Below, one piece after another: positions 16,640 to 57,991 of a stretch of 64,000 bases of DNA. The position numbers were made by a program, and so were the translations under genes. Source of the DNA: Brevundimonas sp. SL130. Its GTDB lineage: Bacteria > Pseudomonadota > Alphaproteobacteria > Caulobacterales > Caulobacteraceae. Location: assembly GCF_026625805.1 (NCBI RefSeq), contig NZ_CP113064.1:3264657-3328656 (forward strand), given 5' to 3'. Every line of letters begins with the position of its first letter. Within the stretch, counting starts at the first letter, position 1. Below the pieces are notes generated by a model. That model ran no database searches. It was not told the DNA's origin and was given only the letters and a program-made list of their open reading frames with translations.

Positions 16640-16667
16640 CTCCCCGTTCGCGAAGGCGAACGGGGAG
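16640..16667. repeat. REP-like hairpin, left part of the palindrome split by IS110
   Basis: A 12-bp perfect stem (CTCCCCGTTCGC with GCGAACGGGGAG) has a 4-base loop. Joined directly to base 17868 it would read GGGGAGGACAGG, which matches the intact mirror half of the same element near 17960-17980. This half was therefore detached by the insertion. Confidence 0.75.
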
Positions 16668-16675
16668 CAACCATG

Positions 16676-17632
16676 TCAGTTGAGCACGGGCGTCCAGGGC
16701 TGATCACGCTTGAGGACGAGGTTTGCGGCTTCGATCAGCTTTCGCATGACGGCGACGAGGGCGACCTTCGGGGGTTTGCCGTTGTCGATCAGGCGCTGGG
16801 CGAAGGCCTTGAGCGCGGGGTCGCATCGGCGGGCGGCCATGGCGGCGATGTAGAGCAGGCGTCGGGGCCTGCATCGTCCCCCGGCGATGAACCTCTGGCC
16901 CTTGTGGGCGCCAGAGTCTCGGTCGAACGGGGCCACGCCGATCAGGGCGGCGGCCTGGCCCCGGCCCATGGCGCCCAGTTCGGGCATGCGCACGACCAGG
17001 CCGAGAGCGACGATGGGACCGACGCCCGGCAGGGAGCGCACCAGGTCGAAGCGCCGCGCCAGGTCGGGCCAGGCGCGCAGGCGCGCCAGCAGATCCGCCG
17101 CCAGCCGGGCCTTGCGCGCCTTGAGCTGGGCCAGTTGGGCGCGGGCCTCCTCCAGCAGGTCGGGCAGGCGGACATGCTCCATCTGGGTCTTGAGCAACCT
17201 CACCAGGTCGGCGGCCTGTTCATAAGCGGTCAGCCGCTCGGCCAGCTCCCTCAAGCGGGGATCGGCGGCGGCCTTGACCGTATCGACCTGGGCCGTGGCC
17301 AGGGCGATCAGCCGCGCGTCGATCCGGTCGTTCTTGGCCCGCAGCCGCTTGATCCGGGCGAACAGCCGCACCTCCAGCGGCTGATGGACCACCACCTCCA
17401 GCCCCGCCGCCGCAAGCGCCTCGACCACGCCGCGCTCGTAACCGCCCGTCGCCTCCAGCCCGACCCGGCCGACGCCGCGCGCCGACAGCCAGGCCAGAAG
17501 CTCGGCGTGCCCCTGGGCCGTGTTGGCGACCTGCAGCGTCGCCGCCGGCTCCGCCCCGTGAAGCGCGACATCCAGCCGGGGCTTGGACACATCGACCCCG
17601 GCGATCCGTGTGTTAGACTTGGCCTCGTTCAT
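16676..17632 (-). CDS. IS110-family transposase (DEDD recombinase)
   Basis: ATG at 17632 gives 318 residues, normal for IS110. The N-terminal RuvC-like domain has GVDVSKPRLDVA near residue 11 (first Asp), GLEATGGYE near 58 (Glu) and KNDRIDARLIA near 97 (Asp pair). A coiled-coil linker follows (residues 125-185). The C-terminal Tnp domain has LPGVGPIVALGLV near 200 and IGVAPFDRDSGAHKGQR near 230, containing the catalytic Ser region. Both domains are intact with no frameshift, so the element is probably active. A longer frame from 17761 would read through the putative bridge RNA and is rejected. Confidence 0.92.
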   Translation of the reverse strand: MNEAKSNTRIAGVDVSKPRLDVALHGAEPAATLQVANTAQGHAELLAWLSARGVGRVGLEATGGYERGVVEALAAAGLEVVVHQPLEVRLFARIKRLRAKNDRIDARLIALATAQVDTVKAAADPRLRELAERLTAYEQAADLVRLLKTQMEHVRLPDLLEEARAQLAQLKARKARLAADLLARLRAWPDLARRFDLVRSLPGVGPIVALGLVVRMPELGAMGRGQAAALIGVAPFDRDSGAHKGQRFIAGGRCRPRRLLYIAAMAARRCDPALKAFAQRLIDNGKPPKVALVAVMRKLIEAANLVLKRDQPWTPVLN

Positions 17633-17649
17633 CGATCCCTTCCCCCGGT

Positions 17650-17830
17650 CCGAGCTTCGCTCGGCCAGAGGACAGGCTCTTGTGGCTTCGGACCCAATCG
17701 TCCCTGCAACCATCCGGATCAGTGAACAGCCGACGGCGACCCAGCTCCCCGACGGCCCCAAAGGCCAAGGACACGGGCGGTCCCTCCATCGGTGGCTCGC
17801 CTGATGCGGTGAACATCAGGCGAGCATCCC
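17650..17830 (-). ncRNA. Putative IS110 bridge RNA
   Basis: The non-coding end upstream of the transposase has hairpins at 17795-17825 (12-bp perfect stem, 7-base loop) and 17650-17664 (CCGAGC/GCTCGG). In transposase-strand order it holds TGTCCT (17773-17768), equal to the target left of and including the CT core. Next is CGGGGAG (17751-17745), complementary to CTCCCCG on the target right. Then comes ATGGTTGC (17713-17706), equal to the element's own right end plus the core C, and ACAAG (17683-17679), complementary to CTTGT at its other end. This is the order of target guides then donor guides known from IS621. Transcript ends are estimates. Confidence 0.6.
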
Positions 17831-17867
17831 GGATCAGGGGAAATCTAACAGATCAGCGACAAACAAG

Positions 17868-18003
17868 GACAGGTCGCGCCAGCGACCAGGAGGGGGCGAC
17901 TCGGTCTCTGATATTTTAGCGGGTCGCCTTCGCCGTCGGAGTCACCCCCTCCTGACCGCTTCGCGGTCTGTCCTCCCCATGCGCCTTCGCGCATGGGGAG
18001 GTG
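17868..18003. repeat. REP-like long palindrome, right part, split by IS110
   Basis: The sequence folds on itself. 17868-17896 (GACAGGTCGC... AGGAGGGGG) pairs with 17946-17974 (CCCCCTCCTGAC... CTGTC) with few mismatches. A terminal 13-bp hairpin follows (CCTCCCCATGCGC with its complement around CTTC, 17973-18002). The missing left hairpin is at 16640-16667 on the far side of the insertion sequence. Confidence 0.75.
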
Positions 18004-46134: not shown

Positions 46135-48595
<2,461 letters not shown>

Positions 48596-57106: not shown

Positions 57107-57991
57107 ATGACGGACGCCAAGCTCAAGATCGCCGTGATCGGCCCCGGCGCCATCGGCGGCACGGTGGCGGCCTGGCTGGCGCAGCGCGCGGATCTCGACG
57201 TCCTGGTCTGCGCCCGCACGCCGTTTGCGGACCTGGAGATCGAAGCCCCCGGCGGGCGGATCGCCGCCACGCCGACGGTCGCGACCCGCCCGGACGGTCT
57301 GACGCCCGTCGACTGGGTGATCGTGGCCACCAAGACCTATGACACCGCCTCGACCCTGGTCTGGCTCGAGGGGCTGGTCGGCCCTGAAACGCGGGTGGCC
57401 ATTCTCCGCAACGGGGTCGAACACCTGGCCCCGTTCGCCGACCGAGTCCCCGTCGACCGCCTCGTCCCCGCCGTGGTGGACATACCGGCTGAACGCCGGG
57501 CGCCCGGCCGGATCCTTCAGAGGCGCGACGGCTGGATCAAGACTCCAGACGGCGAAGCGGGCGCCGCCTTCGTCGCCCTGTTCGCCCATACGCCGATCCA
57601 CGCCGAGACCACGGCCGACTTCCGCTCCGAAGCTTGGAAGAAGCTGGCCCTGAACTGCGCCGGCGCCGTCAACGCCCTGATCCTCAAACCCTCCGGCATC
57701 GCCCATGACGAAGGCGCCGCCTCCGTGATGCGCGCCCTGGTCGCCGAATGCGTCTTGGTGGGTCGAGCGGAAGGGGCGCTCCTGCCCGACGATCTGCCGG
57801 ACCAGGTCATCGCCGGCTATCGCGCCGCCGCCCCGGACGGGATCAACTCGCTCCACGCCGACCGCGCCGCCGGCCGCCCCATGGAGCTGGACGCCCGCAA
57901 CGGGGTCATCGTCCGCCTCGGCGCCCGCCACGGCCTGCCGACCCCGGCCAACGCCCTGATCGTCGCCCTGCTGAACGCGGCCGCGCTGTAG
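57107..57991 (+). CDS. Ketopantoate reductase-family oxidoreductase (PanE/ApbA)
   Basis: The 294-residue protein has the N-terminal Rossmann motif VIGPGAIGGTVAAWLAQ at residue 10, WVIVATKTYDTAST near 70 and ILRNGVEHLAPF near 98. The C-terminal helical domain includes the conserved catalytic Lys region EAWKKLALNCAGAVNAL near 175. It starts 11 bases after oxyR and may share its message. The family includes true 2-dehydropantoate reductases and paralogues of unknown substrate. No other pantothenate gene is nearby, so I do not give it the panE symbol. Confidence 0.85.
   Translation: MTDAKLKIAVIGPGAIGGTVAAWLAQRADLDVLVCARTPFADLEIEAPGGRIAATPTVATRPDGLTPVDWVIVATKTYDTASTLVWLEGLVGPETRVAILRNGVEHLAPFADRVPVDRLVPAVVDIPAERRAPGRILQRRDGWIKTPDGEAGAAFVALFAHTPIHAETTADFRSEAWKKLALNCAGAVNALILKPSGIAHDEGAASVMRALVAECVLVGRAEGALLPDDLPDQVIAGYRAAAPDGINSLHADRAAGRPMELDARNGVIVRLGARHGLPTPANALIVALLNAAAL

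Follow-up and report, generated by a model that had tools for sequence, protein, structure and literature searches.

Known bridge RNA systems and the present element

The bridge-RNA system of IS110-group elements is already known (Durrant 2024; Siddiquee 2024). In IS621 of E. coli (PMC11208160, PMC11208158), the bridge RNA comes from the left end, ahead of the recombinase gene, and carries a left and a right target guide (LTG, RTG) followed by a left and a right donor guide (LDG, RDG). Target and donor share a CT core, the LDG ends at the core C, and the RDG is discontiguous and ends in CAAG. IS621 further has a promoter at the junction of its ends, REP-type palindromes as targets, and the DEDD and serine residues of its recombinase. 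The seekRNAs of IS110 and IS1111 elements belong to the same guide-RNA class, and natural reprogramming of such guides has been reported (PMC11187229). Insertion of IS110 elements into REP sequences is likewise well known (PMC1525189).

Apart from the junction promoter, for which it has a candidate only, the element analysed here shares all of these features with IS621. Unlike IS621, it has its own guides and target, an RTG of seven bases with the core included (four in IS621), a recombinase that is only distantly similar in sequence, and a 38-nt REP-like hairpin that separates the RDG from the strand closing the donor loop. In elements of the IS1111 type the RNA lies downstream of the gene and the subterminal repeats are long (PMC11187229), whereas here the RNA lies upstream, the GACA/TGTC repeat is 4 bp at most and the right end ends 8 bp past the stop codon, which does not place the element in the IS1111 group. 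The element is a clear further example of the system, and the insert is a new detail. Homology and covariation together indicate that the region very probably holds the bridge RNA at the left end of an IS110-group insertion, with guides for the element's own ends and its own site. The boundaries, the gene, the conservation of the fold, and the match and covariation of guides with sites and ends come from the present analysis.

Element boundaries and target site

The window, a 64,000-nucleotide stretch of Brevundimonas sp. SL130 DNA, belongs to a 3.5 Mb chromosome represented by a single contig. The element occupies positions 16668–17865 on the minus strand, with 1198 bp between its left CT core (17866–17867) and its right CT core (16666–16667). 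The occupied site reads GACCTGTC-CT-[element]-CT-CCCCGTTCGCC on the same strand, where the left target TGTC lies at 17868–17871 and the right target CCCCG, at 16661–16665, opens the palindrome CTCCCCGTTCGC-CTTC-GCGAACGGGGAG. Two empty sites on the same chromosome (G000:C1:2732382-2732441 and 69353-69413; GACCTGTCCTCCCCGTTCGCC and GACCTGTCCTCCCCATTCGCC) present these flanks joined, with only the 2-bp CT in common. Because the empty copies join exactly over the CT core, the boundaries of the element are fixed and not assumed. The comparison also gives CT as the recombination core, a 2-bp overlap, and no other target duplication. The left non-coding end, upstream of the gene, is 233 nt long, the right end only 8 bp.

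The chromosome contains 33 copies of the target word TGTCCTCCCCG and none of the same pattern read backwards. At the sites read, the word opens a REP-type palindrome, and several other elements of the comparison set are likewise located at palindromes or repeats. Another copy of the palindrome, unoccupied and in the opposite orientation (CTGTCCTCCCCATGCGCCTTCGCGCATGGGGAGG), adjoins the element at 17966–18001. Elsewhere on the chromosome, the target word recurs with a period of ~187–189 bp at G000:C1:49588-50348 and 57161-57549 in the manner of BIME-like tandem arrays, the first of which carries it on both strands.

The recombinase

The recombinase gene (16676–17632, minus strand) encodes 318 amino acids with matches to the Pfam domains DEDD_Tnp_IS110 (2e-18) and Transposase_20 (2e-14). 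The RuvC-like DEDD domain, the Transposase_20 domain and the catalytic serine are those of the IS110 group. The only PDB sequence matches were the recombinases of IS621 (E 4e-29) and ISCro4 (PDB 9t56; E 1e-28), the latter also an IS110 recombinase, compared here at the sequence level. Residues D14, E60, D102, D105 and S240 align with D11, E60, D102, D105 and S241 of IS621. Compared with the closest relative, L032 (82% protein identity), a dN/dS of ~0.3 was obtained; the gene is intact and, judged from sequence, looks constrained.

Parts and fold of the predicted bridge RNA

An Rfam search at the gathering score returned no family in the window. The earlier note on this DNA had described four guide words, occurring in a set order ahead of an intact IS110 transposase gene, and all four are in place on the minus strand: TGTCCT (17773–17768), CGGGGAG (17751–17745), ATGGTTGC (17713–17706) and ACAAG (17683–17679). 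Words of only 5–8 bases in GC-rich DNA might match by chance, or guide and site might both derive from related GC-rich repeats; TGTCCT indeed occurs twice in the region. Taken singly, the words appeared in 8.7%, 7.5%, 0.6% and 3.5%, respectively, of 20,000 dinucleotide-preserving shuffles of 17640–17865, and the four in order appeared in none. The second TGTCCT, at 17674, was rejected as a guide, being part of the captured repeat described below.

The predicted bridge RNA extends over 17634–17835 on the minus strand, as do all of its parts listed here. The earlier note had the right region, 17633–17867, and probably too early a start. As the core occupies 17867–17866 and the element itself begins at 17865, the RNA probably starts near 17835 rather than at 17867. 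This start follows from a -10-like TAGATT (17842–17847, minus strand), and the end of the RNA is taken from the strand that closes the donor loop. In the circular form, TAGATT would stand 17 bp from a TTGCTT built from TTG of the right end, the CT core and T of the left end. TTGCTT was found at this junction in 32/32 elements, a count that the way of locating the ends partly predetermined, and the -10 matches at 2–5 of 6 positions.

The RNA begins with a 5' stem-loop (17795–17825; both sides changed in 5/10 pairs), followed by the target-binding loop and its stem (17730–17792; both sides changed in 6/11 stem pairs). This loop holds the LTG, UGUC plus the core CU (17768–17773), and the RTG, CGGGG plus the core AG (17745–17751). 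Next to the RTG, C17744 is the putative handshake base fitting donor position 7 (G), placed by analogy with PMC11208158. The donor-binding loop (17634–17720) is closed by GATCC (17720–17716) and GGATC (17638–17634) in a fold that includes the insert, this being helix 5 of the helix analysis. It holds the LDG, AUGGUUG plus the core C (17706–17713), which matches the element's own right end and core C in 8/8 bases. The RDG (17679–17687) comprises ACAAG (17683–17679) and, two passed-over bases away, probably also A17687-G17686; IS621 has a discontiguous RDG of this kind, and relatives show discontiguous pairing as well.

Folding with covariation from homologous copies, which had been proposed as a check, yielded six helices with 95.5% of cells paired and 15/34 pairs changed on both sides, more than in any of 500 shuffles or any slid control. 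Twelve relatives, with the window excluded, served to build a covariance model, which matched the window at 17839–17670 (E 3e-31) and placed the loops where the earlier note had put them. Strand, order and core agree with IS621, which bears out the proposed succession of target loop and donor loop. The claim that two strong hairpins belong to this layout held for one of them; the other (~17675–17645) is a captured REP-like repeat outside it, which the earlier note had not recognised as an insert in the donor loop. A second model match, at 47758–47907 (E 0.013), was weak, had no IS110 gene nearby and was taken as chance.

Covariation of guides with sites and ends

Upstream regions were aligned from elements with both ends recognised, giving 32 distinct sequences, of which 27 were left after removal of near-identical ones. 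The ends were located by the pattern CTTGT...GTTGCT taken from multi-copy elements, and elements with other ends were left out. In an unguided scan of ~180 alignment columns, permutation was used to set the bases of each column against the target or end of the same element and against those of every other one. For the 27 relatives, the left-target signal showed a single peak at 17770, where TGTC ends (z 8.2, against 2.8 for the runner-up), and the right-target signal a single peak at 17747, where CGGGG ends (z 10.5, against 2.6 for the runner-up). The scan thus arrived unaided at the two guides that had been said to select the actual site, TGTC-CT-CCCCG. The right-end signal was strongest at 17707 (z 5.7, against 4.4 for the runner-up), in agreement with the reading of the LDG as right end plus core C, and its higher background is due to the ends falling into few types. 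Each of the three peaks was reached in 0/2000 permutations. Some LTGs (L050, L053, L083, L084, L101, L134 and others) look one column out of register in the alignment, which was taken as it stood; this lowers their scores here and in the match percentages below.

The left end gave a weak signal (best 3.7 among the 27 relatives, and not at the RDG itself), because it begins with CTTGT in every element used and hardly varies. ACAAG matches CTTGT as proposed, with too little variation for strong covariation. In most elements RNA bases 157–158 (numbered as in IS621) agree, in full or by wobble, with the variable left-end bases 13 and 14: AG with TT or CT, AC with GT, and AU with AT, the pattern of the discontiguous IS621 RDG. 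In seven elements one of the two bases or both do not fit; these include the close relative L032 and four for which a fit would need another spacing or is lacking altogether.

At the five non-core positions of the RTG, 89–96% of elements match their own site, whereas matches to the sites of other elements amount to 35–43% at four positions and 89% at the core-adjacent one. This points to a sharp natural guide length in the alphaproteobacterial set, which would be five non-core bases on the right and about five on the left. Misfits were L062, in the RTG, and L040, with a poor fit.

As relatives share history, we compared nearest pairs by recombinase identity as a control for kinship. In 12/12 informative pairs the guides were a better match to the site of their own element than to that of the partner; three pairs were tied, two of them with identical guides, and none was opposed. 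Relatives at different sites with unchanged guides, which would have spoken against guiding, were looked for in this way, and guides and sites were found to change together. Permutation keeps composition and still gives peaks at the guide columns, and nearest pairs at different sites have correspondingly different guides. Since guides and sites covary in both the column scan and the nearest pairs, chance or a common repeat origin is refuted as the source of the matches, and we regard its probability as negligible.

The same covariation bears on whether the non-coding end, which abuts the recombinase start, is mainly a regulatory leader or sRNA that controls the recombinase without guiding insertion. 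Such control has been proposed for ISPpu9, which has two sRNAs regulating tnp (PMC8450116). Regulation does not predict loop bases that track each element's own site and end, and a purely regulatory role is thus very improbable; the region may have a regulatory role in addition to guiding. We retain the reading of the region as a guide RNA.

A REP-like insert in the donor-binding loop

Directly after the RDG, the window copy carries 38 extra bases (~17678–17641) that are missing from the other 31 aligned RNAs and belong to a captured REP-like hairpin, whose stretch of homology to the repeat is 17642–17679 (minus strand). They resemble a near-identical dispersed repeat of congeners (G146, G108, G094, G130, G163), with 37/38 bases and one single-base gap relative to G146 (GAGCCTGTCCTCGGGCCGAGCGAAGCTCGGACCCGGGGG) and 34/38 bases, ungapped, relative to G108 and G130. 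An origin from the genome's own target palindrome was rejected: its hairpin core CCGAGCGAAGCTCGG has a single occurrence in this chromosome, and taken as a whole the insert fits a different family of repeats known from congeners.

By the covariance model, the insert shifts the strand that closes the donor loop and interrupts the outer donor stem. The handshake base after CAAG is G in most relatives, where it fits C at target position 7, and A in the window copy, a misfit. The insert may impair the donor loop. It is quite conceivable, at somewhat less than even chances, that the guides are real and that this copy is now inactive, the repeat having landed in the donor loop after insertion; this is compatible with the guide-RNA reading. 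It would accord with the uniqueness of the insert, the shifted closing strand, the swapped handshake base and the presence of a single copy of the element in a chromosome with 33 exact target words, although low copy number has many causes. Against it, the recombinase is intact and looks constrained, and in the predicted fold the GATCC/GGATC closing strands stay paired around the repeat as an extra hairpin. That the hairpin is a tolerated or functional extra arm of the donor-binding loop is unlikely in our estimation. If true, bridge RNAs would accept a structured domain between RDG and closing strand, acquired from the same repeat class that IS110 elements use as targets.

Natural retargeting and proposed mechanism

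The window element and L032 are identical over 72 nt from RTG to RDG. The LTG and the first RTG base differ, fitting the different site of L032, CTCCAC-CT-CCCCA. The pair, the most telling of the nearest pairs, is a clean case of natural retargeting, with an identical donor loop and different target guides and site. Plasmid records yielded distant relatives only (<60% protein identity, at most ~70% DNA identity).

Other IS110 types are present in the same chromosome. The covariance model also finds the four copies of a second type (L135, L134, L124 and L125, at G000:C1:326252, 2661993, 2900199 and 3480450, respectively), with a protein ~42% identical and a guide GUGACGGAG that fits the sites CTCCGTC or CTCCGGC. 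A third type (L126, L003 and L002, at G000:C1:40521, 564443 and 3361472, respectively) appears to have the core CC rather than CT; it sits in another repeat family (GCGCCGCTGGGTC ... GCCGGAGGATGACGAAA), and GCCGGAGGATGACGAAA has 16 exact copies.

By analogy with IS621, the RNA would be transcribed, fold into the 5' stem-loop, target-binding loop and donor-binding loop, and assemble with the recombinase. The target loop would pair with both strands of TGTC-CT-CCCCG, and the donor loop likewise with the junction of the element's ends, ATGGTTG-CT-TGTTT, on both strands. Target and donor DNA would then be brought together by the recombinase for strand exchange at CT, and in this way the element would have entered a palindrome that belongs to a repeated intergenic family.

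The results illustrate that raw sequence is enough for reading bridge-RNA guides, and comparison enough for verifying them. Through the captured repeat, in turn, the amount of additional structure that a donor loop can bear would become directly testable.
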